Part shown: piece by piece, positions 3,919 to 51,159 of the stretch
Position numbering within the stretch: the stretch's first letter is position 1
Layout: the number at the start of each line of letters is the position of its first letter
Assembly (NCBI RefSeq): GCF_018613195.1
Contig: NZ_JAGGQQ010000004.1
Coordinates: 335,375-399,374, forward strand
Origin: Bacillus sp. ISL-45
GTDB lineage: Bacteria; Bacillota; Bacilli; Bacillales; Cytobacillaceae
Reading direction: 5' to 3'
Length of the DNA: 64,000 bases
Made by a program: the position numbers and the translations under genes
The notes under the pieces: generated by a model
What the model was told of the DNA's origin: nothing
Database searches by the model: none
Seen by the model: only the letters and a program-made list of their open reading frames with translations

Positions 3919-4345
3919 ACCTGGAACTACTTCAGACAAAACGAGCGGCTCCGACTGCGTTTTTGTCTGAACCTGGGGGAACTTCGGACAAAATGAGGGG
4001 ATCCCTCGCTGATTTTGTCCGAACCAGAGGCTACTTCGGACAAAGTGAGGGGCTCCCTCGCTGGTTTTGTCCGAACCTGGGGCTACTTCAGACAAAATGA
4101 GGGGCTCCCACTCTGGTTTTGTCCGAACCTGAGGCTACTTCGGACAATATGAGGGACTCTGACTGCGTTTTTGTCCGAACCTGAGGCTACTTCAGACAAA
4201 GTGAGGAGCTCCGACTGCGTTTTTGTCTGAACCTGAGGCTACTTCGGACAAAATGAAGGGCTCTGACTCTGTTTTTGTCCAAACTTTAGGCTACTTCAGA
4301 CAAAGTAAGCGGCTCCTACTGCGTTTTTGTCCGAAGCTGGAACTG
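3919..4345. repeat. Tandem array 1: eight 52-bp units, each an inverted repeat
   Basis: Eight units begin at 3919 and run without any insertion or deletion to 4334, with a partial ninth to about 4345. Each unit has the form ACTTCRGACAAAR, a purine-rich GAGGGGCTCC-like loop, then TTTTGTCYGAAC. The arms can pair over about 11 bp. Units 1 and 6 carry an A in the left arm with a matching T in the right arm, and units 2, 3, 5 and 7 carry G with C, so pairing is kept in six of eight units. It lies between the pbpB terminator and the spoVD promoter region. Since 52 is not a multiple of three, reading frames crossing it are by-products. Confidence 0.95.
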
Positions 4346-4374
4346 CTATTGCATACGCTTCTACCGGGCACCAC

Positions 4375-4420
4375 AAAAAAAAAAAACAGAGGAAGGGCTC
4401 AACCGCCCACTTCCTCTGTT
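4375..4420 (-). terminator. Terminator built into the end of pbpB
   Basis: Minus-strand stem AACAGAGGAAG/CTTCCTCTGTT (4420-4410 and 4395-4385) followed by a run of 12 T. The pbpB stop codon (4401-4399) lies in the loop, so the stem encodes the last residues of the protein. It ends the mraZ-rsmH-ftsL-pbpB transcript before the repeat array. Confidence 0.9.
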
Positions 4421-6609
4421 TCTTCATTATCTTCCTCAGTCTTCAAGGATTTCTCAAATTGCTGAAGCGGGGTTTCCAGCTCGACAATCAGGTTCTCCCC
4501 TTCATTGATTGGTACTCCAGGCTTAAGGCTTTGTTTTGTGACGTAACCGCTGCCGGCTTTATTTAGCTTAATTTCTGCAATCTGCGCCAGTTTCATGACA
4601 TCCCGGAGTGACCAGTCTGTCATGTCTGGGTAAGTCATGACTCCGGATGATCTGATAAAGACCTTTTCTCCTTCGAGCGCCATTATATCAGCCTTAGGCA
4701 ACTGCTCCTCGACCTGGTTTCCGTCCCCTATAACAACTGTTTCAAACCCTTTGGATTCAAGCAAGCTCTTCGCTTCTGCGGCACTCATACTGGTTACATC
4801 CGGAACGAGGCTGGAATCAGCCTTTTCCATAGAGGCAGGTTTAATATTTAAATACTGCAGGCTGCTTTTCATCACTGATTTAAAAATCATGGAGGTTGGG
4901 ATAGAACCTTTATAATAATGGTCAATTTCCGGCTGCTGGACAGCGACATAGACGATTAATTTAGGATCATCTTTTGGTGCCATCCCAAGGAAAGAGAACA
5001 GATAATCGCTTGCACCATCTAAATAACTGCCGTTCGCTGTTATGTTTGCAGTACCTGTTTTCCCAGCAACCTCGTACCCATCGATGGCGTACGATTTCCC
5101 TGTACCATGCTCACCAGTGACAACAGTCCCTAAAACATCCCTAACTGCCTTGGCAGTTTCAGCAGAAATAGGCTGGCCAACAGACTTTGGTTCCTCTTGC
5201 TTGATCACATCACCAGTGTTTGGATCGACTATCTTATCAATAACTCGCGGTTTCATCATATTTCCGTCATTCGCCACTGCTGTCGCTGCCTGGATCAGCT
5301 GGATCGGCGTTATAGTGGTTCCCTGTCCATATGATGTCGTAATCTTTTCAATCGGCCATTTATAGACAATTGTTCCAGATGTTTCGTTAGGGAGGTCAAT
5401 GCCCGTAGGCTGGTCAAAGCCAAAATCAGTCAAGTACTCACGGAATTTTTCCGTACCTATTTTTTCATTTACCAGCTTTGCAACTGCTACGTTAGAGGAA
5501 CGCTGGATACCTTCCAAAAAAGATATTGTTCCCCAACCACTGCCGTTGTGGTCGCGAATTGCCCTGGAGTTTTCGGTAACTTTATAGGAACCTGATTTAT
5601 AAAGTTCATTCGGATTCCATTTATTTTCCTCAATTGCTGCTGCAAGCGTGAAAATCTTCATCGTAGATCCTGGCTCGATCGGTGTCTCGACCACCTCATT
5701 GTGCCAGCTATTATCCAGCCCCTCCCTTGTCGTCGGGTGGAAGCTCGGACGCTGGGCCATCGCAAGGATATCACCAGTCTTCGGATCAGCGACGACTGCA
5801 ATGATCTTCTTTGGCTTATATTCCTCCACAACACGATCGACGGCATCCTCTACGAATGTTTGGATTTTTTTATCAATCGTTAAAAATACATTGCTGCCAT
5901 CCTTGGCAGGCGTAACTTTTTTCTCTCCGTCAGGTAAGAGAAAGCCCCATAAATCACTTTCAAATGAGAGAGAACCATTTTCACCAGTCAATTCGTCATT
6001 AAGCGTTTTTTCAATCCCCAGCTGACCGGAAGTAACTGTTTTCTTATCTTTTGTTTCTTCCTTCTCAACAAATCCGATTAAATGGGAAGAAAATACACCG
6101 TTTGGATAGAACCTCTTTGAATCTCGTAAAAAAGTAATTCCTGGCAGCTTCTCCTCTTCGATTTTCCGCTTGGTCTGATGAGAAATATCGCGGCCGGCTT
6201 TTCCAAACTCAACCTGCCATGCTTTTTCTTTGGTAAGTCGTTTATAAATTTCCGATTCGCTCATATCGATATATTTAGCCAGCACGGCCGCTGTCTTCGC
6301 AGGGTCGCTTACATGCTTCGGCTTCTTCTTATTCGTTGTTACTGAATCGTTAAGGATTGCGACAAGTGTGTAGGCAGTCGTATCCTCCGCGACCACTTCA
6401 CCTTTGCGGTCAAAGATCGTTCCTCTTGTAGCCTCGATTACTTTTTCATTCGTGTACTTTTGCTGTGCCCTTGCAGCCAGTGCTTGCCCGTGTACTTCTC
6501 CCGTAACCTGGATGGTTACGAACCTGAAAATCAAGATAAAAAAGAGCAGGCTGAATATTACGAATAATACCGCTGCTCCTGCATTCATATTTGGCTGTTT
6601 CTTAATCAT
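4399..6609 (-). CDS. pbpB: Penicillin-binding protein 2B, septal transpeptidase
   Basis: Essential class B transpeptidase of the divisome, the partner of FtsW and FtsL/DivIC in septal wall synthesis. The 736 residues have an N-terminal membrane anchor (about 11-31), a pedestal domain, the transpeptidase domain with STMK (near 315), SSN and KTGTAN motifs, and two C-terminal PASTA domains (about 597-655 and 656-715), then an acidic Glu-rich tail. B. subtilis PbpB is about 716 residues. It overlaps ftsL by one base (TGATG), which implies coupled translation. Its 3' end doubles as the operon terminator. Confidence 0.95.
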   Translation of the reverse strand: MIKKQPNMNAGAAVLFVIFSLLFFILIFRFVTIQVTGEVHGQALAARAQQKYTNEKVIEATRGTIFDRKGEVVAEDTTAYTLVAILNDSVTTNKKKPKHVSDPAKTAAVLAKYIDMSESEIYKRLTKEKAWQVEFGKAGRDISHQTKRKIEEEKLPGITFLRDSKRFYPNGVFSSHLIGFVEKEETKDKKTVTSGQLGIEKTLNDELTGENGSLSFESDLWGFLLPDGEKKVTPAKDGSNVFLTIDKKIQTFVEDAVDRVVEEYKPKKIIAVVADPKTGDILAMAQRPSFHPTTREGLDNSWHNEVVETPIEPGSTMKIFTLAAAIEENKWNPNELYKSGSYKVTENSRAIRDHNGSGWGTISFLEGIQRSSNVAVAKLVNEKIGTEKFREYLTDFGFDQPTGIDLPNETSGTIVYKWPIEKITTSYGQGTTITPIQLIQAATAVANDGNMMKPRVIDKIVDPNTGDVIKQEEPKSVGQPISAETAKAVRDVLGTVVTGEHGTGKSYAIDGYEVAGKTGTANITANGSYLDGASDYLFSFLGMAPKDDPKLIVYVAVQQPEIDHYYKGSIPTSMIFKSVMKSSLQYLNIKPASMEKADSSLVPDVTSMSAAEAKSLLESKGFETVVIGDGNQVEEQLPKADIMALEGEKVFIRSSGVMTYPDMTDWSLRDVMKLAQIAEIKLNKAGSGYVTKQSLKPGVPINEGENLIVELETPLQQFEKSLKTEEDNEETEEVGG

Positions 6610-6965
6610 CAGTTTTCAACACCTTTAACATTGTCTTCGTTCAATGTTAAACCGAGCTTCTCTGTTACCTTTTTGATTCTTTCATAGGTACTTAATTCGC
6701 TAATCTGGACTTCAAGGTCACTGTTAATCTTTTGCTGCTCCTGAATGCTGCCTTCAATGATTTGGATTTCTTTGTTTACTTCGTAAATGGCTGCCTGTTT
6801 TGAAACCATGAATGTCGCGCCGAAGCAAACCATTGCCCCAAAAACAAACATCAGGATTTTTTCGCCGGGCGTCATTATCGAATTGCGTCTTGCCGGCGCT
6901 TTTGCCGGTGCCTGAACAGTGCGCTGCTGCTGTTCTTGCTGCAATTTTCTAGCCAGATTGCTCAT
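6609..6965 (-). CDS. ftsL: Cell division protein FtsL
   Basis: Small bitopic divisome protein that pairs with DivIC and activates the FtsW-PbpB synthase. The 118 residues have a Gln/Ala/Arg-rich cytoplasmic N-terminus, one membrane segment (about 36-56) and an extracellular heptad-rich coiled coil (about 58-105). Of two adjacent ATGs the second is preferred because it leaves six bases after AGGAGG. Position between rsmH and pbpB and the TGATG overlap with pbpB are as in other Bacillus. Confidence 0.93.
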   Translation of the reverse strand: MSNLARKLQQEQQQRTVQAPAKAPARRNSIMTPGEKILMFVFGAMVCFGATFMVSKQAAIYEVNKEIQIIEGSIQEQQKINSDLEVQISELSTYERIKKVTEKLGLTLNEDNVKGVEN

Positions 6966-6996
6966 CATTTTCCCTCCTGAAATTATATTTTATATT

Positions 6997-7935
6997 TTAT
7001 TTTTTTACTTTTTCAGCGATACGCAGCTTTGCGGATCTTGCCCGGTTATTGAATTCCAGCTCTTCCTCTGACGGAAGGATCGGTTTCCTCGTAATCAGCT
7101 TCAATTTTGGCTGGTATTCCTCAGGTATGATCGGCAAACCTGGCGGTAGCGGCGGTGTTTCACTCGCTTTTTTCAAGGTAACCTTGCAAATCCTGTCTTC
7201 CAGTGAATGGAAGGTGATGACACTGATCCTTCCTCCTACGGACAGGAGATTAATTGCCTCCTCCAGTGATTTTTCAAATACACCAAGCTCATCATTAACC
7301 GCGATCCTGACTGCCTGAAAAACCCGTTTAGCCGGGTGGCCGCCTTTTCTCCTTGCAGGTGCAGGAATTGCATCCTTGATCAACTCAACAAGTTCACCAG
7401 TGGTTTCAATCGGTTTACTTTCCCTTGCAGCCTCAATCTTGCGGGCAATTTGTTTTGAAAACTTCTCTTCCCCGTACTGGAAAAAGATTTTGACCAATTT
7501 TTCATATGGCCATTCATTAATTACATCATAAGCGGACAATGGCGCGTCCTGGTCCATCCGCATATCGAGTGGAGCATCATGGTGATAACTGAACCCGCGT
7601 TCCGGTGTATCCAGCTGCGGTGAGGAAACTCCCAAATCATACAGAATCCCATCCACTTCTGTTACACCCAACTTTTCAAGCTCTTCCTGTAAATAAAGGA
7701 AATTGCTCTTGATGATCGTCAGCCTGTCGCCATAAGCAGCAAGCTTCTCTTTTGCATTCGCAATTGCAATATCGTCCTGGTCAAAAGCGTATAGCTTTCC
7801 TTTTTCCGAAAGCTTGGACAAAATCAATTCACTGTGGCCTGCGCCACCGAGAGTGCAATCCACATATGTACCGTCAGGCTTGATATCTAGCCCATCTACT
7901 GTTTCTTCCAGTAAAACTGTTGTATGTTTGAACAT
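6997..7935 (-). CDS. rsmH: 16S rRNA (cytosine1402-N4)-methyltransferase RsmH
   Basis: SAM-dependent methyltransferase acting on C1402 in the ribosomal P site. The 312-residue protein shows the family pattern: [13 protein letters not shown] at the start, the SAM loop [46 protein letters not shown] and ISFHSLEDR-like ITFHSLEDR. The start was placed at the second of two in-line ATGs because family members begin MF(K/Q)H and this ATG is six bases from AAGGTGG. It is the second gene of the mraZ operon. Confidence 0.95.
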
Positions 7936-7992
7936 CATGATCCACCTTTCCAATCGAGGAGCAGGTAATATTATATCAGAATAATGTTACCC

Positions 7993-8424
7993 TTAAATAT
8001 CAAATCCAATCATATTTTCCGCAATTTCAGCAAAAGATTCCTCAGATTCTGCGAAATATTCTTCCCAGATGGCTTTGCTCCAAATTTCAATTCGATTGGA
8101 AACACCTAAAATCACACATTCTTTCTCAAGCTTGGCGTATTGCATCAGCGGGGAAGGGATATTGACTCTCCCCTGTTTGTCAATTTCACTCTCGGTAGCA
8201 CCCGAAAAGAAAAAACGGGTAAATGCACGTGCATCTTTTTTTGTCAGCGGAAGTCCTTTAAGCTTCTCTTCGATCACTGACCATTCAGAAACAGGGTAAC
8301 CAAATAAACATTGGTCAAGTCCACGGGTAAGAATGAACATTTCTCCCAGGTTTTCACGGACCTTGGCAGGGATGATCAATCGGCCTTTGCTATCAACATT
8401 ATGATGGTATTCACCCATGAACAT
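7993..8424 (-). CDS. mraZ: Transcriptional regulator MraZ
   Basis: AbrB-fold DNA-binding protein that forms rings and controls the division cluster it heads. The 143 residues are two tandem MraZ/AbrB domains, each with the DxxGR pattern ([11 protein letters not shown] near 10, [10 protein letters not shown] near 86). The length equals B. subtilis MraZ once the start is put at [10 protein letters not shown], which has a GGGGGT site upstream; an in-frame extension of 15 residues upstream has no support. A set of GTGGK direct repeats 31-55 bases upstream is the likely autoregulatory operator. Confidence 0.95.
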
Positions 8425-8454
8425 GCCACTACCCCCACTTTCTAAATACAATGT

Positions 8455-8479
8455 ACCACATTCCCCCACTTTTCACCAC
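8455..8479 (-). promoter_or_regulatory. Putative MraZ operator: three GTGGK repeats spaced 10 bp
   Basis: Minus strand reads GTGGT (8479-8475), GAAAA, GTGGG (8469-8465), GGAAT, GTGGT (8459-8455). Known MraZ boxes in E. coli are three TGGGN repeats separated by five bases just upstream of mraZ; spacing and location agree here. A further GTGGGGG lies at 8439-8433, overlapping the ribosome-binding region. Confidence 0.7.
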
Positions 8480-8544
8480 CTTATTTTAATTATTCTCCCC
8501 ACGCCTTTAAAATCCTTCTGTAAATATTCATTTCCATGAATTTC

Positions 8545-8870
8545 TTTCATTACAAAAAAGTTGCTTTTACTGTTTTTTGCCTTTCCTCTTCTTTTCAGGT
8601 AATGCAGAGGCGCTGCTTTTATCGTAAATCCTTTTTCCCCTTCATTTTGAGCAATGGAAAGCTGCTGCTTTTACCGTATAATATTTTCTCCCTTCATGCG
8701 GGGCAATGCAGAGGGCTTGCTTTTACCAAAAAATCTTCTCCCTTTACTTCGGGCAATGCAGAGGGCTTGCTTTTACTGAAAAATATCTTCTCCCTGTACT
8801 TCGGGCAAAGCAGCCGTTGCTTTTCCCGCAATTTGTTTTTCCCCCTGCATTTCGGGCAATTCATAGTGCG
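8545..8870. repeat. Tandem array 2: six degenerate 50-52-bp units
   Basis: The anchor TGCTTTT occurs at 8562, 8614, 8666, 8718, 8768 and 8818, giving periods of 52, 52, 52, 50 and 50, followed by a truncated unit ending near 8870. The best-preserved units read ACTTCGGGCAATGCAGAGGG then CTTGCTTTTAC and a pyrimidine tract. The stretch ACTTCGGGCAATGCAGAGGG lines up with ACTTCGGACAAAATGAGGGG of the array at 3.9 kb, so the two may share an ancestor. It lies between the bshC terminator and the mraZ promoter. Confidence 0.85.
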
Positions 8871-8886
8871 TCATTTATTTTTGAAA

Positions 8887-8916
8887 TAAAAAAGCTCCAC
8901 CCACATAGGGTGAAGC
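8887..8916 (-). terminator. Terminator of bshC
   Basis: Minus strand: GCTTCACCC, loop TATGT, GGGTGGAGC, then T6. It lies seven bases after the bshC stop. Confidence 0.9.
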
Positions 8917-8922
8917 CTGAAG

Positions 8923-10557
8923 TTACAGCTTAATAACTTTGTGTGTTCCATCGAATTCATAATCCAGCTTTAGTAAATCTGGTATTAAATCCAATCCGAA
9001 CTTATTTAAATAGTAGAATGGGTTCCAGACTCTTTCCTGCGGTGAACCGCCTGGCCTTAACGCGTTTTCTACTCTTGTGAATTTGCGCAGGATATGATCA
9101 TGCTTTCGGCAAATTGCCTCTACTATTTTATCCTCCATGAATTCAACCTGCTTAAGCAGGATGGATTCGTTCTTCTGGAGCATAGGCATCAATACGGGGT
9201 CGATTCCGTTGGATTTTTCACGGATGACTTTATATTGATCTGCCAGCATCGTTTTTACATTCTCGAAAAGTTCTTCTACTTCACGATCCTTTAGAGAATC
9301 GATAAATTTCAGCTCATGCCCATTTGTACCAGAAATTAAAACCTCTTTCAAATCAAGGTTCAATTCGTCAAGGTCAGACTCAATCGACCCTTCGAGCAAT
9401 GTTATGTTGAGTCTTGGAACAAGCGGCGGCATTTTTAGACTAAAATGTTCAAAAGCAAGTTTCAGCTCAGCCCAATAGGCAATTTCTCCAGGTCCGCCTA
9501 TGAACGCTAGCGTCGGGAACAGCCACTCCTGCATTAACGGACGAGTAACGACATTATTGCTCAGCTTTTCAGGATATTCGTTCGCAATCTCCACCAGCTC
9601 TTCATATGTGAAGCTGACTTCCCCATTTTTACCTGAAAACCCTCCACTTTGTGGGTCAAACTGGAGCAAAATCCGCTCATTTACTTTTTCATCGTAAAAG
9701 AAAAGATTGGCAGCATACTCGCTAATATCGATCATATTCGCAAACCCAGCACCATCTGTCCGTTCTTGCTGCCCTAGAACCGCGGACGTAATTTCACGAT
9801 GATTTTGGATTTGCTTGATAAAACATTCCTTTTCCAGCCTGCGCAACTCTTTATTTCCGGAATCAACAATCAGCAAGCCTGAATCCTTGAATAGCTCCAT
9901 GATGATCCTTGCGAAAAAATCAACAAAGGATTCCGCAGTCTTCAACGATTCCAGGGCAAATGCCAATACCTCTTTCGTGTGCTTGGTCTCTCCGTAAGTT
10001 TCCATAATCTCTTCAACCCAGGAATAGCAAAGGTCCCTGTTTATACACACTTCTGAAATCATTTTCTTCTCTAGATTCTTCTCAGGATAAACCCACTTTT
10101 CCTGCTTATTGTCCTTCATGACGTACACATGGTTAACTTCCTGGTAGTCATGGTCTTCCCCGGCAATCCAGAATACGGGTACGACAGGAACGCCAAGCTC
10201 AGCCTCTTTTTGTTCAGCAAGCTTGATAATTGAAATCACTTTATGAATTGTATATAGCGGACCAGTCAGAATACCGGCTTGCTGCCCTCCGATGACAGCA
10301 ACGCTATTTTCTTTTCTCAGCTTATTGATATTATCAGTGATTTTTTCAGAGTTCGCATAACGGGACATAAAGGACTGGATATGGTCTGCAAGCTCATTCC
10401 TCATAAAGCTTCTATTTTTCAATTCATCCAGGCGGTGAATATAAGCGTTTTTATCGTTAAAATTATAATGAAAGAAGCTCTGCAGCCCAGGGCTTCCAGT
10501 TAGATAATCTGTCGCAAACCGGTTCGCAGCCGGAAGAGAGAGATTTAACATCTCCAT
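8923..10557 (-). CDS. bshC: Bacillithiol synthase BshC (YllA)
   Basis: Adds cysteine to glucosamine-malate in the last step of bacillithiol synthesis, in the cytoplasm. The 544-residue length and N-terminal layout match the family (B. subtilis 539). Recognisable blocks are AVIGGQQAGILTGPLYT near 88, VPVFWIAGEDHDYQEVNH near 127 and the C-terminal ERVWNPFYYLNKFG, with a coiled-coil insertion between. It sits next to mraZ as in other Bacillus, and ends in its own terminator. Two possible ATGs lie two codons apart; the first is used because it is nearer AAAGGA. Confidence 0.93.
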   Translation of the reverse strand: MEMLNLSLPAANRFATDYLTGSPGLQSFFHYNFNDKNAYIHRLDELKNRSFMRNELADHIQSFMSRYANSEKITDNINKLRKENSVAVIGGQQAGILTGPLYTIHKVISIIKLAEQKEAELGVPVVPVFWIAGEDHDYQEVNHVYVMKDNKQEKWVYPEKNLEKKMISEVCINRDLCYSWVEEIMETYGETKHTKEVLAFALESLKTAESFVDFFARIIMELFKDSGLLIVDSGNKELRRLEKECFIKQIQNHREITSAVLGQQERTDGAGFANMIDISEYAANLFFYDEKVNERILLQFDPQSGGFSGKNGEVSFTYEELVEIANEYPEKLSNNVVTRPLMQEWLFPTLAFIGGPGEIAYWAELKLAFEHFSLKMPPLVPRLNITLLEGSIESDLDELNLDLKEVLISGTNGHELKFIDSLKDREVEELFENVKTMLADQYKVIREKSNGIDPVLMPMLQKNESILLKQVEFMEDKIVEAICRKHDHILRKFTRVENALRPGGSPQERVWNPFYYLNKFGLDLIPDLLKLDYEFDGTHKVIKL

Positions 10558-10690
10558 TAACTTGTACTTCCTTTCTCGTAAGCAATTTTCACTGTTATGA
10601 GTATAGCATTGTTTGAATTGAAAAGAAAAAAACTTTGCCTTCCGAAATTTATAAAATCAAGATTCTTTTTAATCAAGCTTAGGATAAGCT

Positions 10691-10727
10691 AAAAAAAATG
10701 CTGGACCCTCTATTAAGACGGTCCAAC
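10691..10727 (-). terminator. Terminator after the DUF3397 gene
   Basis: Minus strand stem GTTGGACC with GGTCCAGC, 12-base loop, followed by T7-8. It separates the panE-DUF3397 pair from bshC. Confidence 0.85.
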
Positions 10728-10733
10728 ACTAGA

Positions 10734-11123
10734 TTAAGCAAACAGGAATGTCAGGCGTTTAAACAAACCATACAGCACAAGGACGATGTACGCAGAAAAG
10801 AAAAGCAGGAAATTGAACCGCCAAAAGCCCTTAAATACCTTCGGCAACAATATCTCCTCTTTGTATTTCCAGTGAATCAATACAAATATAGCCGCAAGTG
10901 CAAACAAGATGATTAAGATCAGCCATAGGAACGACTTTTCCCAGATGGTGACAATCAAAAAATGGACAGACAGCACCAGCAAAAAGGTGCTGAAGTCTAG
11001 AGCCATATTTACAGACCTTCGATGGTTGCCTGTAATTTGCTTACTGATGATGAACACAGTGAGGTAGCCAATCATTGGAACTGTGATCAATGTGGCCACA
11101 AGTGCGGAGAAGAATCCCGGCAT
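10734..11123 (-). CDS. DUF3397 family membrane protein
   Basis: 129 residues with four predicted membrane segments (about 5-25, 37-56, 62-84, 100-122) and short basic loops, as in the DUF3397 family found next to panE/bshC in Bacillus. Function unknown. The ATG at 11123 overlaps the panE stop by one base (TGATG); a GTG one codon earlier is possible but lies too close to AGGGAGG. Translational coupling to panE suggests co-production only, not a role in pantothenate synthesis. Confidence 0.75.
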   Translation of the reverse strand: MPGFFSALVATLITVPMIGYLTVFIISKQITGNHRRSVNMALDFSTFLLVLSVHFLIVTIWEKSFLWLILIILFALAAIFVLIHWKYKEEILLPKVFKGFWRFNFLLFFSAYIVLVLYGLFKRLTFLFA

Positions 11124-12299: not shown

Positions 12300-12305
12300 T
12301 TGCTT

Positions 12306-17817: not shown

Positions 17818-18016
17818 TGTGTTCCTCCTATGATTCTCGTCCCCTAAATTTTATCAATATTAAGTACATTTAAAAAGTGCTTGAGTCTCGGAGGTGATTA
17901 AATTTAAATCTGATAAGGATAGAGAAGAAATTTTTCCGATGAGGATTAGTTGATAAATTTCAACATCAGTTAATTGAGTAAAATAAAAGTAGTCTGAAGC
18001 ATTAAAAAAATTTATT
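17818..18016. other. Gene-free stretch upstream of the crotonase gene
   Basis: About 200 AT-rich bases before the tandem array. They must hold the crotonase promoter, but I see no convincing -35/-10 pair and no cre-like site. Confidence 0.4.
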
Positions 18017-18702
18017 AGAACACGAATTCATATGCCCCATCGGCAAAAGTGGCTCAATAAGGGGGATTGGAACATGAATTCATATGCCACATCAGAAAAA
18101 ATGTCTCAATAAGAGGGATTGGAGCACGAATTCAAATGCCACATCAAAAAAAGTGGCTCAATAAGAGGGATTGGAACATGAATTCATATGCCCCATCAAA
18201 AAAAGTGGCTCAATAAGAGGGATTGGAGCACGAAATCCAATGCCACATCATCAAAAAAAGTGTCTCAATAAGGGGGATTGGAACATGAATTCATATGCCA
18301 CATCAGAAAAAATGTCTCAATAAGAGGGATTGGAGCACGAATTCAAATGCCACATCAAAAAAAGTGTCTCAGTAAGAGGGATTGGAACATGAATTCATAT
18401 GCCACATCAAAAAAAGTGTCTCAATAAGAGGGATTGGAGCACGAATTCAAATGCCACATCAAAAAAAGTGGCTCAATAAGAGGGATTGGAGCACGAAATC
18501 CAATGCCACATCATCAAAAAAAGTGGCTCAATAAGGGGGATTGGAACATGAATTCATATGCCACATCAGAAAAAATGTCTCAATAAGAGGGATTGGAGCA
18601 CGAATTCAAATGCCACATCAAAAAAAGTGTCTCAATAAGAGAGTTTGGAACATGAATTCATATGCCATGTCAGAAAAAGTGGCTCAATAAGAGGAATCTA
18701 AA
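18017..18702. repeat. Tandem array 3: thirteen 52/55-bp units with higher-order structure
   Basis: Using the CAYGAA anchor, units start at 18021, 18073, 18125, 18177, 18229, 18284, 18336, 18388, 18440, 18492, 18547, 18599 and 18651. Steps are 52 except two of 55, where an extra TCA is present. Three unit types occur: A (GGAACATGAATTCATATG), B (GGAGCACGAATTCAAATG) and B' (GGAGCACGAAATCCAATG plus the TCA). The order from unit 5 is B' A B A B, B' A B A, a 263-bp higher-order repeat. Many units can fold GCCAC with GTGGC around an A-rich loop. It lies between the rpmF terminator and the crotonase gene. Confidence 0.95.
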
Positions 18703-18824: not shown

Positions 18825-18859
18825 AAAAAAAGCACAGGGATGCAGTTGCATTCTGTGCT
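18824..18859 (-). terminator. Terminator of rpmF
   Basis: Minus-strand stem AGCACAGAATGC with GCATCCCTGTGCT and a four-base loop, then T7. It ends the yceD-rpmF transcript. Confidence 0.85.
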
Positions 18860-25885: not shown

Positions 25886-26035
25886 TAACAACATCAATTT
25901 GAGGATGTTGTTGCCAACCGCGGAGAAGACTTACGTTTCCCCATAAGTTCTTCCTCCGGTTTCTCCTCTCCCTTTGCCTTCTATCCTGTTGACAGGATAT
26001 AGAAGGACCCTGCAGAAACTGCAGGGCTTTTTTTT
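25886..26035 (+). ncRNA. csfG: CsfG-like sporulation small RNA
   Basis: A 150-base RNA with its own promoter and terminator. In order: hairpin AACAACATC/GATGTTGTT (25887-25912), a longer imperfect hairpin from CCGCGGAGAAGACTTA to TAAGTTCTTCCTCCGG (about 25918-25959) with a TTTCCCC loop, a pyrimidine-rich linker (TTTCTCCTCTCCCTTTGCC), hairpin TTCTATCCTG/CAGGATATAGAA, and the terminator. In B. subtilis the forespore RNA CsfG is encoded between ylbG and ylbH; here the RNA is next to rsmD (ylbH), with ylbG farther on. I assign it by place, sigma-F promoter and pyrimidine-rich loops; no alignment was run. No peptide-coding frame is evident. Confidence 0.72.
26008..26035 (+). terminator. Terminator of csfG
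   Basis: CCCTGCAG, loop AAA, CTGCAGGG, C, T8 on the plus strand. Confidence 0.92.
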
Positions 26036-26062
26036 GCCATAAAAAAGGCTACAAAAACAAAT

Positions 26063-41435: not shown

Positions 41436-41466
41436 AGTTTTACCTCCCTTTCAAACAAATCCCCTT

Positions 41467-44187: not shown

Positions 44188-45144
44188 ATGAATCGTTCCC
44201 TTAAGTGGCTGGCTGTTTTAACCACAATTGGGATGCTTTTTGTTTTGCTCGGAGGAGCTTTGGTTACCAAAACTGAATCAGGTATGGGGTGCGGCAAATC
44301 CTGGCCCCTTTGTAACGGGGAATTCGTTCCTACTGATATAACCCCGGAATTGGTAATTGAACTTGCCCACCGATTAGTGTCGGGCAGCGTAGGCATTATG
44401 GTGCTTATTTTGTCCATTTGGACATGGAAGGCTATTGGGCACATTCGCGAAACGAAGTTTTTAGCAGTTTTATCTTTTTTCTTCCTTGTTCTTCAGGCAT
44501 TGATCGGCGCAGCCGCTGTGGTTTGGGGACAATCTGATTTTGTCCTTGCACTTCACTTCGGAATTTCGCTGATCTCTTTTGCGGCTGTACTTTTATTGAC
44601 CATGCTTATTTTTGAAGTCGATCAAAAGTTTCAGGCTGAAAAACTGGTGATCGATAAAAGGATGAGGTTCCATATTATCGGGCTTTCCGTTTACAGCTAT
44701 ATTGTCGTATATACTGGCGCTCTGGTCCGGCATATGAATGCCAGCCTGGTTTGCAAAGACTGGCCTTTATGTACAAATGGCGGTGCCTTCCTTCCTACCA
44801 ACATTTACGAATGGGTACAGATGGGGCACAGGGCTGCTGCAGGTTTCATTTTCATTTGGATTGCATATGTCACCTACATTGCCGTCAAACATTACAAACA
44901 TGAAAGAGTATTATACTGGGGATGGATCATTTCAATGATCCTTGTGTCACTGCAAGTCATTGCCGGCGCATTGATCATCTTCACAAGACTCAATCTGTAC
45001 ATTGCCCTGGGACACGCTTTCTTCATTTCTGTTCTGTTCGGAGTATTCAGCTACTTTATCCTTTTAGTTTCGAGGAGCAAGAAGAATGCTGCCAGAGTCG
45101 AAAACCCTAAACCCGTTGAACTTTCCCCGGCAACGGTAAAATAA
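44188..45144 (+). CDS. ctaA: Heme A synthase CtaA
   Basis: Oxidises heme O to heme A, the cofactor of the oxidase encoded divergently. The 318 residues have eight membrane segments in two similar halves. Conserved heme-binding histidines lie in LAHRLVSG and LHFGIS, then MGHRAAAG and LGHAFF, and the cysteine pairs CGKSWPLC and CKDWPLC mark the two external loops. The start is MNRSLKW at 44188, with AGGTGA before it; 13 codons of upstream open frame are not used in homologues. Confidence 0.94.
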
Positions 45145-45175
45145 AAAGCTGCAGCGTATGCTGCAGCTTTTTTTT
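45143..45175 (+). terminator. Terminator of ctaA
   Basis: AGCTGCAGC, loop GTAT, GCTGCAGCT, T8. It lies between convergent ctaA and ftsW. Confidence 0.9.
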
Positions 45176-45181
45176 ACTATC

Positions 45182-46387
45182 TCAATGACTACGACCTGAC
45201 TTATAAGAATTTTGATTTACTGCAGCTTTTGCAGGTATAGACTGAGCAGTCCTGTCCTTCTTATACTTCTCTTCATATTTAACAAACATCGAAACATTTA
45301 CCAATATCCCCATCGATAGTGCGAGCTGCAGCAAGGAGGAACCTCCATAGCTTACAAACGGCAGCGGTACTCCTGTCAGTGGAATGACCCCGGAAGCCCC
45401 CCCAAGATTAACGAATGACTGAATCCCAATCATACTGGAAATCCCAATTGCCAGCAAACTGCCAAAGGGATCCTTGCACTTAAGCCCGATATGAATCCCT
45501 TTCAGAACGATGAAGGCTAGACTCAGCAACACAAAGCCTACACCAAAAATCCCCAACTCCTCAGAGATGACTGCAATGATGAAATCCGTGTGTGCTTCAG
45601 GCAAATACCCAAGCTTTTGATTACTTTGTCCTAATCCCAGTCCTGTCAGCCCGCCTGAACCAATTGCATAATAGGCATTAGCCAGTTGATATCCGGATTT
45701 TTGTTCATCATCGAAAGGGTTGCTATATGAGGTAAGACGTTCCAAGCGCCGCTCCGAAAATACTTCATCTTTCAATATTAGCGAAACAGGTACCAATAAT
45801 ATCACTACAATCATTACCAGCTTCAAGATATTTTTAAAATTCATGCCTGAAGACATAATGATTGATGCTGCAATCAGCATGATAATACCTGCTGTCCCGA
45901 AGTCAGGCTGAACAGCGATAAGGAAAAACACCATGACCAGAAATAGCAGAGGCGGGAGCACACCTTTATTGAATTCATTTATGTATGATTGTTTATTTGC
46001 ATACACAGCTGATAGATAGATAATGACACTTAATTTAGCAAGCTCCGATGGCTGGATGCTCCTGGCTCCAACTTCTATCCAGCTAAGGGCATTACCCGCT
46101 ACTTTACCTACGACGAACAGGATGAGTAAGCCTAATAGAGTAACGATCACCATAGGAAGTAAGATCCTGGTGCTTCGCATTGCTTTGTAGGGAAATAAGG
46201 CCGCTAAAATAAATACAAACAGAGCTGTTATTAAATTGAATTTTTGTTTGTCATAAAAGAAATCACTGTCTACTCCATGCCAGGTGACCATGCTGGCACT
46301 ATAAACCATGACAAGTCCGAACAAGCTCAACAGAGCAACAACAATGATCAATGAATAGTCATAGGATTTCAGTATTTTTTTAAACAT
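45182..46387 (-). CDS. ftsW: Peptidoglycan polymerase FtsW (SEDS)
   Basis: SEDS glycosyltransferase of the divisome, working with PbpB (4.4 kb). The 401 residues have ten membrane segments, the conserved acidic loop in GLGLGQSNQKLGYLPEAHTD near 249 and the PLPFVSYGGSSLL motif near 347. It lies next to ylaN as in B. subtilis, but pycA, which there lies between ftsW and ctaA, is absent. Ser/Lys-rich C-terminal tail. Confidence 0.92.
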   Translation of the reverse strand: MFKKILKSYDYSLIIVVALLSLFGLVMVYSASMVTWHGVDSDFFYDKQKFNLITALFVFILAALFPYKAMRSTRILLPMVIVTLLGLLILFVVGKVAGNALSWIEVGARSIQPSELAKLSVIIYLSAVYANKQSYINEFNKGVLPPLLFLVMVFFLIAVQPDFGTAGIIMLIAASIIMSSGMNFKNILKLVMIVVILLVPVSLILKDEVFSERRLERLTSYSNPFDDEQKSGYQLANAYYAIGSGGLTGLGLGQSNQKLGYLPEAHTDFIIAVISEELGIFGVGFVLLSLAFIVLKGIHIGLKCKDPFGSLLAIGISSMIGIQSFVNLGGASGVIPLTGVPLPFVSYGGSSLLQLALSMGILVNVSMFVKYEEKYKKDRTAQSIPAKAAVNQNSYKSGRSH

Positions 46388-46563
46388 CGTCTCTTCCCCA
46401 TCTTCTAAGTTGTTTAATCTATTCTACTATAAGTTGAAATATCCTGCCTTTGTCAAAGGAAAAGTTATGGAATTCTTAATATATTGTCATCAAAGTGTAA
46501 TGCAGTTTACGAGAAAAAACTTGAAAACTTATGTAAAGAGCAACATCCCCAAAAGTACCTCAC

Positions 46564-46603
46564 AAAAAAACTCAAACAATCGTTAAGGACTGTTTGAGTT
46601 TTT
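46564..46603 (-). terminator. Terminator of ylaN
   Basis: Minus-strand AAAAACTCAAACAGTC, loop, GATTGTTTGAGTTTTT and further T. Confidence 0.85.
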
Positions 46604-46610
46604 AGGAATA

Positions 46611-46892
46611 TTATTTTTTTAACGAAGCTTCATGCAATATGGAAAGCTCTTGTTCCAATTGGTCGAGAATGACTTTCCCATCTGATTCTTCGATTAAGCC
46701 GAGTCTTACTGCAAAATCTATCTCTCTCGATAATCCAAACATTTGCGTATCTAAAACCTCTTCATAAAGAGGGCATTGAGGCATTGTCAGGTTATCCATT
46801 TGCACTTTGATCAGCTTTAAAATTTTATCAGCGTCAGCCTTTAATAAGGCATGTGCTTTTTCCTGATGATTGATTATCATATCAGACGCCAA
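46611..46892 (-). CDS. ylaN: YlaN, iron-homeostasis regulator of Fur
   Basis: 93 residues, same length as B. subtilis YlaN, with [20 protein letters not shown] and [16 protein letters not shown] fully conserved in my recollection. YlaN is conditionally essential and binds Fe(II) and Fur, relieving Fur repression when iron is scarce. TTG start after GGGGGATCAAG. Upstream of ftsW, but a terminator separates them. Confidence 0.92.
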
Positions 46893-47081
46893 CTTGATCC
46901 CCCCGTTTCCGAGCGATTACCTAATCCTATCTTTAAATTTTACCCTTAAGTGGACAAAAAAGCAAGAATATTAGGGATGCAGAATTTAATGGTTAGCGTG
47001 CTTTAGGGGAGTTGAAATGACAGCTTGCCAAAATATCGTTATACTGAATAAATAATATATGTAAAAATGCAGGAGGAAATT

Positions 47082-47582
47082 ATGGAGACAATCATCCCTA
47101 TCGGAGGAAGAGTTAAATACAAGATTACTTTGGATCCTGGTGTCTGGATTTTCGACGACCGCAAAGTAGATTTGAATACATATTTCAACGAAGACCAAAA
47201 AACCGATGATGCCCTAGAGGAGTATACTAAATCTGTCTCAAAGCATTGGGACCGTGAAATTATGGAAGGTGCCGTTTATCCGCCTACACTTAAAACAGAA
47301 GTTAAGTTTGAAAAGGAAAAAGTCCTGACAGGCACTTTCGGCATTCCCTTTAAACCATTTCTTGATAATGCCGAGCCAGATCAGACTGCTGGGACTGTTG
47401 TAATTGAATACGGCGATAATGATCAGATAGCTCTTTCCCTCAAAGAAGCTTCTGGTATTATCCTCGGGTTTTCCAAGGACGGCAAACCATTAAAAGAAGA
47501 CGGACCACTGCATGTATATTTCAAGGATGGCTCCAATAAAGACAGTCCAATCAAAAATGTTACCGGATTCCTAGTGGAATAA
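47082..47582 (+). CDS. Conserved hypothetical protein at the ylaL position
   Basis: 166 residues, soluble and acidic, beta-rich (IPIGGRVKYKITLDPGVWIF near the start, VVIEYGDNDQIALSLKEASG near 112). It lies between ylaN and the phoH-like gene, where B. subtilis has ylaL and ylaM, and is likely YlaL-related. AGGAGGAAATT precedes the ATG. I have seen homologues called peptidyl-prolyl isomerase, but no known PPIase motif is visible. Confidence 0.6.
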   Translation: METIIPIGGRVKYKITLDPGVWIFDDRKVDLNTYFNEDQKTDDALEEYTKSVSKHWDREIMEGAVYPPTLKTEVKFEKEKVLTGTFGIPFKPFLDNAEPDQTAGTVVIEYGDNDQIALSLKEASGIILGFSKDGKPLKEDGPLHVYFKDGSNKDSPIKNVTGFLVE

Positions 47583-47598
47583 GCTATAAGGCACTGCC

Positions 47599-47626
47599 AA
47601 CGGGCATCATATGGATGCCCGTTTTA
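47599..47626 (+). terminator. Terminator of the ylaL-like gene
   Basis: AACGGGCATC, loop ATATG, GATGCCCGTT, then TTATTATT. Confidence 0.8.
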
Positions 47627-47660
47627 TTATTGCCTCTTCCCGAATATTAAGTACAGAATA

Positions 47661-49001
47661 TCAATTCAACAGATCGGCTGCGAGCTGGGCAAGAGGTGAT
47701 CTTTCTCCTTTTACGAGCCGGACGTGACCGGCAATCTGCTGATCTTTGAATTTTTCCACCACATACGTCAGGCCATTATTGTAAGCGTCCAGGTATGGAT
47801 GGTCAATCTGGTCGGGGTCACCCATCAAGACGATTTTACTACGTTCCCCAACCCTTGTCAGGATGGTCTTCACTTCATGCTTTGTCAGGTTCTGTGCTTC
47901 GTCAATAATAATGAATTGATCCGGAATGCTCCTACCCCTTATATACGTTAATGCTTCTACCTCGATTGAACCCATTCCTGCCAGTATGGCATCAAGCTCT
48001 CCAGGTTTTTTTGTATTGAAAAGGAATTCGAGGTTATCATAAATAGGCTGCATCCATGGTCTGAGCTTTTCCTGTTTTTCACCAGGCAAGAAGCCTAAAT
48101 CCTTCCCTACTGGCACGATTGGCCTTGCTACAAGCAGCTTTTTAAAAATGCCCAAGTCCTCGGTCTGCAGAAGGCCTGATGCCAATGCGAGCAAGGTTTT
48201 CCCTGTGCCTGCCCTCCCTATCAAGGTGATCAGAGGCATGTCTTGCCGTAAAAGCAGTTCCATCGCCATGATCTGCTGTACATTCCTCGGCTTGATTCCC
48301 CAGATGTGTTTACCCTCATGTTCAAAAACAAGTTTTTTCACTTTTTTACTTTTGGTATCGATCATACCTATTGCGGACGCTGAACTGCCGAGAATATCCT
48401 TCATGATCACAAACTGATTTGGGTAAAAAAAGTTTTGCCCTTTTAAATCAGAGATATTCAGTTCTCCTCTTTCATAAAAGCGATTAAGCTCTTCTATTTC
48501 CAAGTACACTTCTGCATAGCCCGAATACAGATGGTTAATTTCCACAACCCTGTCACTTAAAAAGTCTTCAGCGATCAGGCCGATGGCATCTGCTTTGACA
48601 CGGACAAGCGCGTCCTTACTCACAAGGATTACTGGACGCCCATCTTCCTTCGTTTCCTCTTCAAGGCTCAGGTTTTTAGCTACCGCCAGTATTCGATTGT
48701 CATTTGTTTTTTCAACGAAGATTTCCTGCAGTTGGTGGAAGGATCGATGGTTCAGCTCTATCCGAAGCGTCCCACCGCCCTCAAGGTTGATTTTCTCATG
48801 CAGCTTACCTGTTTCCCTCATGCCGTCTATGAGCCTTGAAACCTGGCGTGCATTGCGCCCAATCTCATCCATATATCTTTTCTTTGAATCCACTTCCTCC
48901 AGAACTACAGCAGGTATGACAACTTCATTGTCTTGAAAAGAAAAAATTGCGTGCGGATCCTGTAGTAAGACGTTTGTATCCAGTACGTATATTTTACTCA
49001 A
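47661..49001 (-). CDS. ylaK: PIN-PhoH ATPase family protein YlaK
   Basis: 446 residues: an N-terminal PIN nuclease-like domain (KIYVLDTNVLLQDP with its first acidic residue, then EEVDSKK and NDNRILAVA) and a C-terminal PhoH ATPase domain with P-loop GRAGTGKTLLA near 260 and the FIIIDEAQNLTKHE Walker B near 355. This fusion (PhoH2/YlaK) has RNA helicase and nuclease activity in mycobacterial homologues; the role in Bacillus is open. TTG start at 49001 seven bases after GGGAGG, matching the homologous MTKIYVLDTN start; a 37-codon upstream extension is rejected. Confidence 0.9.
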   Translation of the reverse strand: MSKIYVLDTNVLLQDPHAIFSFQDNEVVIPAVVLEEVDSKKRYMDEIGRNARQVSRLIDGMRETGKLHEKINLEGGGTLRIELNHRSFHQLQEIFVEKTNDNRILAVAKNLSLEEETKEDGRPVILVSKDALVRVKADAIGLIAEDFLSDRVVEINHLYSGYAEVYLEIEELNRFYERGELNISDLKGQNFFYPNQFVIMKDILGSSASAIGMIDTKSKKVKKLVFEHEGKHIWGIKPRNVQQIMAMELLLRQDMPLITLIGRAGTGKTLLALASGLLQTEDLGIFKKLLVARPIVPVGKDLGFLPGEKQEKLRPWMQPIYDNLEFLFNTKKPGELDAILAGMGSIEVEALTYIRGRSIPDQFIIIDEAQNLTKHEVKTILTRVGERSKIVLMGDPDQIDHPYLDAYNNGLTYVVEKFKDQQIAGHVRLVKGERSPLAQLAADLLN

Positions 49002-49322
49002 ATTGATGCCTCCCGCCTTATTAATCTCGACTTTGGCCAACTTGGCAGCCTTGGCCGGGACTTTGGTAAAATATATGACTTTTTGAATAAAGATAGAAGA
49101 TATTTTGCACAATAACCTTTGAGCATTTATTTTTTACAGCTCCTGTTGGAAACTTTGTTGCCTGCTTTATTCCCACTTCAGGCTATATCCAATAGGGGGG
49201 TTCACGAGAAAAATCACAAGAGAAATATAAAGGGAATACTGGCTAGGAAACTGCTTTCTTCTTTTTAATACTTAGTTGTGGATAAGGACTTTTTACGAAT
49301 AAAGAATCGGAGGGGTTCATTA
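49002..49322. other. Divergent region between ylaK and ylaJ
   Basis: 321 bases with no gene seen. An open frame continues upstream from ylaK but has no ribosome site. No confident promoter was found. Confidence 0.4.
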
Positions 49323-49907
49323 ATGATAAAATTGGTTGCTGCCATTTCGTTTGTGCTGCTTTTGACTGCGTGCAATGGACAGAACAACGCCAACAAAGCT
49401 GACGAAGATCATAAGGTTAAGGTCCAGAATAGTGCAATAGAAGATGTTGACCGCCAATCTGGCCAGGAGATATCCCGCCATCTTGTGAGCCTGACAACTC
49501 ACATCCCGAATGTGGACGATGCCGCTGCTGTAGTAGTCGGACGCTTTGCTATAGTGGGGATCGACGTTAAGGATAAAATGGAGAGGTCTGAGGTAGATAC
49601 CGTTAAATATACAGTGGCGGAAGCATTAAAGAAAGATCCGCACGGTGCCAGGGCAGTAGTTGTTGCGGACCCAGATATCACAGCGAGATTAAGGGAGATA
49701 TCAGAGGATATACAAAACGGCCAGCCTATCCAGGGTATTATGAACGAGCTTTCTGACATAACCGGCAGAGTCATGCCAGAGGTTCCAGCCGATATGATTG
49801 AGCCGCAGACCAAAAGCCCGACCGAGGATCCTAAGAAGAAACTGGACGATGGTGAACAAAAACAATTGGAAAAGGAACAGGAACAACAATCGAATTATCA
49901 TAAATGA
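49323..49907 (+). CDS. ylaJ: YhcN/YlaJ family sporulation lipoprotein
   Basis: 194 residues. Signal peptide with lipobox LLTAC (Cys near 17), then the YhcN/YlaJ domain (about 45-150; AAVVVGRFAIVGIDV, VADPDITARLREI), and a Lys/Glu/Gln-rich tail (KKKLDDGEQKQLEKEQEQQ). YhcN-type lipoproteins lie in the inner spore membrane and affect germination or outgrowth. Start ATG at 49323 follows GGAGGGG by seven bases. Confidence 0.87.
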   Translation: MIKLVAAISFVLLLTACNGQNNANKADEDHKVKVQNSAIEDVDRQSGQEISRHLVSLTTHIPNVDDAAAVVVGRFAIVGIDVKDKMERSEVDTVKYTVAEALKKDPHGARAVVVADPDITARLREISEDIQNGQPIQGIMNELSDITGRVMPEVPADMIEPQTKSPTEDPKKKLDDGEQKQLEKEQEQQSNYHK

Positions 49908-49909
49908 CA

Positions 49910-49937
49910 AAAAGCTTAGTCGATTGACTAAGCTTTT
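49910..49937. terminator. Bidirectional terminator between ylaJ and the flavin-split-barrel gene
   Basis: AAAAGCTTAGTC, loop GATT, GACTAAGCTTTT. The right arm codes for the last residues of the opposite gene. Confidence 0.85.
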
Positions 49938-50383
49938 CTCATTGCATCCATTACCTGATTATCCAGGCGTGCCGCAGCGTCTTTATCATATGTCTTGTCG
50001 TATTGAGGTTCAGCGACGATTTTTGATCCATAGAACATAACGTCCCTTACTTCGCTGATTTTGATTTCAACTAACGCCAGCTTCAAAGGTACACCTTCGA
50101 GCTTTTCCTGCTTGACGTTCGCTGACCCGCTGATTGAATATGTAGATTCATTTGCGATCAGGTTGATTACTGCTTTGTCATTGCTCTTGATATTCTCGAT
50201 GATTCTTGAACGGTTATCCACCGCAAAGTAAACGGTTTCCTCATCCTTTGCCAGTACCCAGGAAATCGCACTGACATTCGGGCCGGTGGTTTCATGGTCC
50301 ACTGTTGCCAAGGTGACAAAACGCTCTTTTTGCAATTCATCAAACAACGGTTTGATTAGTTTAGGTTCTACTTGATTTGCCAT
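49928..50383 (-). CDS. Pyridoxamine 5'-phosphate oxidase-like (FMN split barrel) protein
   Basis: 151 residues with the split-barrel flavin-binding fold: FVTLATVDHETTGPNVSAISW near 22 and FAVDNRSRIIENIKSNDKAVIN near 53, as in general stress and heme/flavin utilisation proteins. True PdxH length (over 200) and its PLP residues are missing, so vitamin B6 synthesis is unlikely; substrate unknown. ATG six bases after AAGGAGG is used over the GTG two codons earlier. Confidence 0.72.
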   Translation of the reverse strand: MANQVEPKLIKPLFDELQKERFVTLATVDHETTGPNVSAISWVLAKDEETVYFAVDNRSRIIENIKSNDKAVINLIANESTYSISGSANVKQEKLEGVPLKLALVEIKISEVRDVMFYGSKIVAEPQYDKTYDKDAAARLDNQVMDAMRKA

Positions 50384-50539
50384 ATTCACCCTCCTTACAC
50401 TATCATAATAGTACTACGAATTCTTTAGGCAGGGCAAATCAAATGATTTTCCCTGTTCAGTTTGGAAACAATGATATACTATAATATAATCCAATCTCAA
50501 CCAGGCTATGTATTATAATTATTGATAAGAGGTGTAAGA

Positions 50540-50740
50540 ATGAGAGTCAAATGTGTACTTTGCGACAAAATTGAGAATATTAACAGCGATACCCTTCAGG
50601 CTAAGCGGCTCAGGAACCGGCCGATCCATACATATATGTGTGAACCATGCAATGAACGAATTGCCGAAAAAACGAACAATCGAATCGCCACCGGGAATTT
50701 TAAGTTATACCGCTCCCGTATAAAGAAGGATGATTGGTGA
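50540..50740 (+). CDS. ylaI: YlaI family (DUF2197) zinc-ribbon protein
   Basis: 66 residues with two Cys pairs, CVLC near 5 and CEPC near 35, spaced as in a zinc ribbon, followed by a basic tail (KLYRSRIKKDDW). B. subtilis YlaI is about the same size; function unknown. ATG at 50540 preceded by AGAGGTG. The downstream side runs into a tandem array. Confidence 0.88.
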   Translation: MRVKCVLCDKIENINSDTLQAKRLRNRPIHTYMCEPCNERIAEKTNNRIATGNFKLYRSRIKKDDW

Positions 50741-50836
50741 TTGTGTATAGTCCTCTATAAAGTTTTAAGGAGTGGTGCGGGACTGATTCAGACAGCTTTT
50801 GGGATTCCCCCTAAAACTAGTCTGAATCCACCCATA
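50741..50836. other. Stretch between ylaI and the tandem array
   Basis: About 100 bases with a TCTGAATCC-like block that returns near 51162 after the array (TCTGAATCCAGAAC), so the array seems to interrupt or be flanked by related sequence. No terminator for ylaI is obvious. Confidence 0.4.
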
Positions 50837-51159
50837 CCCTTATGCAAGCTTTTCCCTCTCTATAAGGGTACGATTCTTGACTAATCATGCCCTTATGCAA
50901 GCTTTTCCCTCTCTATAAGGGTACGATTCGTGACTAATCATGCCCTTATGCAAGTTTTTCCCTCTTTATAAGGGTACGATTCTTGACTAATCACGCCCTT
51001 ATGCAAGCTTTTCCCTCTCTATAAGGGTACGATTCTTGACTAATCATGCCCTTATGCAAGCTTTTCCCTCTCTATAAGGGTACGATTCTTGACTAATCAT
51101 GCCCTTATGCAAGCTTTTCCCTCTTTATAAGGATACAGTTCCTGGTGAATCATGCCCTC
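50837..51159. repeat. Tandem array 4: six exact 53-bp units with a stem-loop each
   Basis: Units start at 50837, 50890, 50943, 50996, 51049 and 51102, with a truncated seventh at 51155; every step is exactly 53. Each has CCCTTAT, an 18-base loop GCAAGCTTTTCCCTCTCT, ATAAGGG, then the linker TACGATTCTTGACTAATCAT. Copies 1, 2, 4 and 5 differ by at most a base or two; the last copy decays in the right arm (ATAAGGA). High identity points to recent growth or gene conversion. It lies between convergent ylaI and the 97-residue gene. Confidence 0.97.

Follow-up and report, generated by a model that had tools for sequence, protein, structure and literature searches.

Four tandem arrays in the window

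The window analysed here, a stretch of 64,000 nucleotides from Bacillus sp. ISL-45 (contig NZ_JAGGQQ010000004.1, positions 335,375 to 399,374), carries four intergenic tandem arrays that are unlike in sequence and have almost the same unit length, close to 52 bp. Array 1 (3919..4339, minus strand, with starts at 3919 and 3927 in Tandem Repeats Finder (TRF)) lies between spoVD and pbpB and shows a period of 52 bp with 7.9 copies and 81% matches; the strand given is that of the GTAGCC core and coincides with the sense strand of the genes on either side. Array 2 (8588..8860), between mraZ and bshC, has a period of 52 bp, 5.3 copies and 74% matches, and contains a 50-bp TRF row at 8666-8813, some of its units being 50 bp long. 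Array 3 (18014..18694) is found between an enoyl-CoA hydratase-like gene and rpmF, with a period of 52 bp, 13.0 copies, two units of 55 bp, and higher-order TRF rows at 211 and 263. Array 4 (50833..51158), with a period of 53 bp, 6.2 copies and 93% matches, lies between a ylaI-like gene (50540-50740, plus strand) and a gene at 51274-51567. The names spoVD, pbpB, rpmF and ylaI are those that we presume from gene order and sequence, and the other flanking genes were named by Pfam matches. The genes around array 4 are convergent and those around arrays 1 to 3 are co-directional. The only remaining TRF arrays in the 64 kb are two, with periods of 12 and 21.

Clustering assigned the four arrays to four separate families, A, J, D, and C for arrays 1 to 4, respectively. 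Family A has the core TGTCYGAA-11-TTCRGACA and a 25-bp spacer, family J has the arms CGGGCA and TTACCG, family D a CAAT-7-ATTG dyad, and family C, whose profile was built from 8 arrays, the arms CCCTTAT and ATAAGGG. A first-pass annotation of this DNA had described four arrays of common period and mostly different sequence, and both parts of that description are borne out. It had also stated that no named system was known for them, which fails, because the class has been published: the four arrays are almost certainly members of the constant-length (51-53 nt), sequence-variable tandem repeats of Bacillaceae described by Subirana and Messeguer 2021 (PMC8161180). The arrays are real and striking, and the class is already described.

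Unit length in the genome and among relatives

The genome was sampled in 60 stretches of 20 kb, of which 11 were aimed at known family A matches; the counts that follow come from the blind subset of 49 stretches (980 kb), whose spaced positions were chosen irrespective of arrays. TRF found 31 arrays with a period of at least 30 bp in this subset, and 27 of them have a period of 51-53 bp (one at 51, 23 at 52, and three at 53). The others have periods of 39, 117 (in a gene), 177, and 190, one each. A density of 27 arrays of 51-53 bp per 980 kb extrapolates to ~127 per genome, which may be slightly overestimated because 6 of the 49 stretches start at contig starts, two of them opening inside an array. 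Rows at 104 and 156 bp, as expected of block growth, are also present in the blind stretches. Tandem pairs of a 177-190 bp element at L010:11178-11540 and L120:3930-4293 share TTAAAATCCTAAAGCCGATTTTAAC and represent a different dispersed repeat. Several contigs of the draft assembly (G000) start or end in 52-bp arrays, namely C23:20-225, C23:535456-535749 of 535768, and C27:1-206, and further contigs have such an array at their start (C12 from position 20, C15 from 17, and C22 from 105). With contigs breaking inside arrays, the assembly may lack longer ones or have collapsed them.

The same length emerges from an 8-mer autocorrelation of intergenic DNA, which works without a repeat finder. The highest counts were obtained at distances of 52 (1714), 104 (1253), 53 (197), 106 (113), and 51 (84), followed by 20 (81), 39 (62), 103 (57), and 40 (43), against a median of 5. 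In the controls, two outgroups of the same order gave counts of 1, 0, and 0 at 51-53, and 70 RsmH loci of other species, with 52-bp-array loci excluded, gave 8 at a distance of 52 with a median of 4, the top distances there being 80, 40, and 120.

The genus was taken to be Mesobacillus on the basis of RsmH relatives, the closest of which include Mesobacillus subterraneus (94%) and Bacillus sp., with some of the records apparently carrying wrong titles, and species of the same genus are called congeners below. The window also has Rfam matches to a ylbH leader (25918-26036, minus strand) and to the SR1 antisense small RNA (60290-60505, minus strand). Arrays of 51-53 bp were found in all six congeners examined (1.0 Mb sampled), where they make up 29 of the 57 arrays with a period of at least 25 bp, and 14 more have periods of 39-42. 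Two outgroups (200 kb) yielded a single array, with a period of 33 bp. A set of 80 Bacillaceae RsmH loci, each at most 21 kb long, holds 52-bp arrays at 7 loci, and these account for 11 of the 18 arrays found. In B. marasmi and Bacillus sp. OV166 (200 kb each), 8 of 12 and 2 of 3 arrays, respectively, fall at 51-53 bp, all in other sequence families. The sequence of array 1 gives 56 blast match rows at 19 places of its own genome, array 1 itself included, and family A is matched in 8 of 20 named genomes; no match to family A was obtained at E 1e-5 in either the plasmid or the phage collection, and carriage on such elements was set aside. The sequence of array 3 recurs at 4 other places in its own genome and, in a search of 41 genomes, gave one weak match in a single one of the 20 congeners. 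Families thus differ between relatives at the same period, indicating that the sequence turns over and the length stays.

The constancy of the unit was quantified in a pool of 70 arrays that had been pre-selected at a period of 50-54 and came from the own genome, from congeners, and from other species. The anchor-to-anchor distance is exactly 52 bp in 474 of 568 cases and 51-53 bp in 556, and units of 50, 51, 53, and 55 bp are also present. Indels inside arrays occur at a rate of 1 per 16.9 substitutions, from which a standard deviation of 2.15 bp between families is predicted at 1.5 substitutions per site; the observed value is 0.46 bp (modal periods of 23 clusters), in an estimate whose tail is trimmed by the pre-selection. 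The first-pass annotation had suggested a constraint on length and had proposed looking for a sharp genome-wide peak at 50-55 bp and comparing related genomes. The present data support this part of its interpretation, since the peak stands at 52 bp by both methods, six congeners and B. marasmi show it with other sequences, and length is kept tighter than drift predicts among the pre-selected arrays.

Core, spacer and inverted half-sites

Around family A lies a superfamily in which the half-sites NNNGGACA and TGTCCNNN are separated by 25 bp in 33 of 40 array consensuses and in 325 of 388 units; on their other side the distance is 11 bp in 337 of 373. When arrays are compared with each other, the identity of the arms is 0.81 and that of the spacer 0.34 (0.25 when shuffled). 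The spacer is thus kept to a fixed length with hardly any constraint on its sequence. Of 27 published families, 5 carry the resulting 27-bp TGTC...GACA core (two from B. coagulans and one each from three other species, one of the five being family A), whereas the highest number in 2000 shuffles was 4, or 1 when the arms had to be complementary at 7 or more of 10 positions. When all trinucleotide pairs were scored at all distances on the same 27 families, the top three corresponded to the geometry of this core. B. alkalitelluris family 71_52_7 (PMC8161180) matches family A by eye.

Over the clusters as a whole, inverted repeats exceed shuffles (p<0.05) in 10 of 23, with a combined p of 1.6e-10. 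Of 20 families, 12 have AAGG or AGGG at the core centre, against a mean of 2.5 in permutations, and outside Mesobacillus 4 of 8 have it, the motif having been read partly off the same data. Single linkage of 87 consensuses joined 82 at a score of 14 and 50 at 16, compared with a maximum of 14.5 in 1500 shuffled pairs. Model R1, which recognises cores of this class, identified 7 unit cores in array 1, five of which it matched on both strands. With E up to 1, its matches in 980 kb of own DNA number 55: 51 lie inside TRF arrays, 2 keep the register at a distance of three units from an array (L121:15730), and 2 form a 52-bp pair, so that no solitary core of this class was seen among them. The pair, at L112:17878-17956, is a two-copy core-class element missed by TRF. 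R1 had no match in 1.0 Mb drawn from the outgroups (10 stretches) and from the RsmH loci (39 of 80).

The two arms change in concert between families. The arms of 21 cores from different families show 37 double-change cells, compared with 16.7 in shuffled and at most 23 in slid alignments, and a covariation score of 0.372, compared with at most 0.152 when slid. Covariation is seen on three of five measures in these 21 distinct cores, most of them chosen by their foot, and the figure leans towards structure because the core rows were picked and typed by hand. Among the cores whose foot is perfect, none has fewer than 3 of the 6 inner pairs. Within arrays, no unit-by-unit compensation of the arms was seen in 55 arrays (z of -1.2 for the short loop and 1.4 for the long loop), and selection on an RNA stem was accordingly rejected. 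Likewise, no wobble asymmetry per array was detected on the sense strand (44 to 42 and 44 to 41 in 26 arrays). Pooled core units read on the strand of the G-rich centre gave 179 A-C against 109 G-T (36 arrays, 313 units). An association of pairs at one family A position was weak and pseudo-replicated, and was dropped. Since the arms co-vary between families rather than between units, and since a wobble excess per array is absent, half-sites that are read singly suit the data better than a folded stem.

Placement behind genes and exchange of arrays

Arrays favour the 3′ ends of genes. Of 65 array gaps, 39 are co-directional, 19 convergent, and 7 divergent, compared with 687, 154, and 233 of 1074 other gaps (convergent versus divergent, p 0.0015), after 11 of 76 arrays near stretch ends had been left unplaced. 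Array 4 was scored as co-directional although its genes are convergent, because gene calling misses genes shorter than 90 codons, and other gaps may be misjudged likewise. In co-directional gaps, the median array starts 89 bp behind the upstream gene and ends 186 bp before the next one. The orientation of family A relative to co-directional genes (7 same, 3 opposite) and the strand of the G-rich centre (5 sense, 11 antisense) were also considered, and both counts are too small to be used.

Within the window, a hairpin scan placed terminator-like hairpins behind bshC and beside array 2 (8892..8918, minus strand), beside array 4 (51243..51272, minus strand, with matches on both strands), and between rpmF and array 3 (18837..18854, on the plus strand only, rpmF being on the minus strand). 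Array 1 lies behind a hairpin and T run of pbpB that was recognised by eye, its loop being too long for the scan. On the left of array 4, a possible half-site remnant of A/K type (TTCAGACA...GTCTGAA) can be read by eye at 50787..50826, and on the right a possible core remnant of the same type (CTCTGAA...TTTTGACA) at 51159..51184. These putative remnants bracket array 4 and look as if one array had replaced another.

A comparison of the same gaps in relatives points in a similar direction. The slot behind bshC holds 52-bp arrays in the window and at loci L030 and L034, five CAACGGGGAATA(A) motifs ~21 bp apart with unlike spacers in M. subterraneus (L033), and 21-bp GTGCAATT repeats at L029. The slot between pbpB and spoVD holds family A arrays in five genomes (the window, L029, L030, L032, and L034) and none in L033; at L031:13622-14104 another repetitive insert, with TRF rows at 34 and 209, takes the place of the 52-bp array. 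The repeats of ~21 bp belong to a second length class at 20-21 and 40-42 bp, that is, two and four helical turns, in which a short conserved motif (TCGCCAATAAA, TCGCTATAAA, CAACGGGGAATAA) is combined with variable spacers. Arrays of 20-21 (and 40-42) bp were recorded at L012:11866-11937, L023:14285-14358, L019:446-496, L193:9954-10068, and L033:9282-9378. Collectively, these data suggest that growth and homogenisation proceed by the copying of single units and of blocks of 2-5, and that arrays settle in slots behind 3′ ends, where one takes the place of another.

Possible mechanisms

The most likely mechanism, put forward tentatively, is a phased lattice of bound protein. One DNA-binding protein, or a few, would recognise inverted half-sites in each unit, and adjacent units would have to lie five helical turns apart, a spacing already pointed out in the first-pass annotation, for the bound proteins to touch. 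The sequence might then drift family by family while both half-sites change together and the spacing is kept, and the outcome could be a complex that stabilises the nucleoid or forms a boundary between transcription units. The length class at 20-21 and 40-42 bp, together with the swap of 52-bp and 21-bp repeats in one gap, was counted in favour of five turns. A narrower proposal, possible but rather doubtful, holds that one 27-bp module, with a TGTC...GACA foot, concerted arms, a purine centre near AAGGGCT, and a fixed 25-bp spacer, is read by one lineage-wide protein or enzyme that sets the 52-bp ruler, other families being older or faster-diverged forms.

Several results weigh against the lattice and its common core. 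No binding protein was found, and jumps of one turn (to ~42 or 62 bp) were not seen inside any of the 70 pooled arrays. The inverted repeats fall short of significance in 13 of the 23 clusters. Cores of 26-28 bp occur in 6 of 29 clusters where 5.3 are expected, which is not above chance, and the idea that all families share the 27-bp core was rejected on this count. GACA-25-TGTC is found in only 3 of 16 own clusters (shuffled maximum 2) and is outranked among trinucleotides by GGG-21-CCC, found in 5 of 16. Model R1 recovers array 1 and misses arrays 2-4 in the window, and in the 400 kb from B. marasmi and Bacillus sp. OV166 its matches number only 2, both weak. A symmetric dimer would have no need of the asymmetry that is seen at the core centre. 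On two of the five measures, covariation does not rise above the shuffles, with 6 against 5.6 pairs changed on both sides and 14 against 14.3 further pair types. Finally, pooled core units on the sense strand of co-directional gaps show 97 G-T against 31 A-C, as RNA would, an excess that vanished when counted per array.

The fixed length could instead be the product of a machine rather than of selection, if an endonuclease or recombinase of the HUH or tyrosine type acted on the inverted-repeat core and measured out 52 bp during amplification. A core with its TGTC/GACA foot, co-varying arms, and purine centre would suit such an enzyme, as would the dispersal of family A over 19 places and the want of solitary cores among the R1 matches. 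We consider it unlikely, since the core is not general, units of 50, 51, 53, and 55 bp exist, and no such enzyme was found in a search that looked only for Y1_Tnp. A comparably low probability is given to neutral inheritance, by which one ancient 52-bp array seeded all families under concerted evolution and the length is a relic. This would explain why families grade into each other in the single linkage and is consistent with indels within units being rarer than substitutions; however, drift should have spread the lengths by ~2 bp, far more than is observed in the pre-selected arrays, the inverted repeats persist, and the families of B. marasmi differ and yet stay at 52.

Two further explanations draw on the palindromic character of the arrays. 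They might act as RNA, being transcribed into strings of hairpins that serve as a sponge, as small RNAs, or in 3′ protection. Transcription is reported from RNA-seq of B. coagulans (PMC8161180 and PMC8625621), the arrays lie at 3′ ends, and their arms co-vary between families. This reading is nevertheless quite improbable, given the lack of compensation at the unit level and of wobble asymmetry per array, and given that array 2 lies behind a scanned terminator-like hairpin and array 1 behind the hairpin and T run seen by eye. Lastly, the arrays could be selfish palindromes similar to repetitive extragenic palindromes (REP) and bacterial interspersed mosaic elements (BIME), mobilised by a REP-associated tyrosine (Y1) transposase (RAYT). 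They are indeed palindromic, extragenic, clustered, and placed at 3′ ends, and Y1_Tnp was matched in 21 of 25 genomes searched, including the own genome with 3 matches. On the other hand, genome G035 has no Y1_Tnp match at E<=0.001 and still carries four 52-bp arrays in 100 kb, so that the transposase, and with it a RAYT/REP origin, is not required. Conversely, genome G053 has 5 such matches and no 52-bp array in 100 kb. Solitary cores were not seen among the R1 matches, and by eye a GTAG tag stands beside the arm in family A only, making this origin very unlikely. The absence of unit-level compensation and of per-array wobble, the absence of Y1_Tnp in G035, and the tight unit length together favour inverted half-sites bound by a protein at fixed spacing over RNA hairpins or RAYT palindromes.

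Comparison with known repeat systems

REP/BIME elements (PMC3733652) resemble the present arrays in being extragenic palindromes in clusters. The 52-bp arrays differ from them in lacking a general GTAG/CGTC tag at the hairpin foot and in keeping a strict 52-bp period, and single units, which also occur in REP/BIME systems, were not found among the 55 core matches. CRISPR loci likewise have regular repeats with a more variable stretch between them. Here, the stretches in between are diverged copies of each other rather than unique spacers, and many arrays are present per genome.

The closest system is the published one. In 176 Bacillus genomes, 4029 tandem repeats were recorded, of which 1886 have units of 51-53 nt and 781 of 20-21 nt, both being of constant length and variable sequence (PMC8161180). 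Several families were found per species, mostly in non-coding DNA, with short signals within species, often accompanied by their reverse in the same repeat. The authors, who cite their own 2020 J. Bacteriol. paper, propose either small RNAs or a protein able to polymerise on the DNA and stabilise the nucleoid, the latter anticipating the lattice considered above; they state that no sequence is conserved across species and set CRISPR apart. Their Table 1 includes B. selenatarsenatis, with families common to B. boroniphilus and B. subterraneus, and the companion paper (PMC8625621) reports the transcription in B. coagulans mentioned above. The part of PMC6749651 consulted contains no mention of 52 bp.

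The present arrays share several properties of this class. Their units are 51-53 nt in the four arrays (array 2 partly 50) and in the 70 pooled ones, and several families of the same length coexist in one genome, own arrays falling into 10 of 16 clusters built from 87 consensuses of several genomes. The published hosts are Firmicutes, mainly Bacillus in the wide sense, in agreement with the RsmH relatives and with the ylbH leader and SR1. The published filter demands at least 4 repeats, with at least 60% of equal length +/-1; all four arrays have more than 4 copies by TRF, and array 2, whose units measure 52 or 50 bp, is a borderline case. The 20-21 nt class accompanies the longer one here as in the published genomes. 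The two are alike in constant length, variable sequence, and host genomes, and the shorter class occupies the slot of array 2 in other species; it differs in its length of about two helical turns and in combining a motif of 11-13 bp with a variable spacer, without a clear dyad by eye.

The text of PMC8161180 contains neither the placement at 3′ ends nor the drift estimate nor the unit-level tests, and no report of a core-and-spacer geometry across species or of 3′ slots was found in the literature as far as searched. In difference from that paper, the 27-bp TGTC...GACA core recurs here in five of the families of its own Table 1. For a class that has been called enigmatic in print, a length that persists through sequence turnover is evidence for a constraint that can act on bacterial non-coding DNA through spacing alone, and the core-plus-spacer geometry and the swap of 21-bp and 52-bp repeats in one gap provide concrete handles for experiment.

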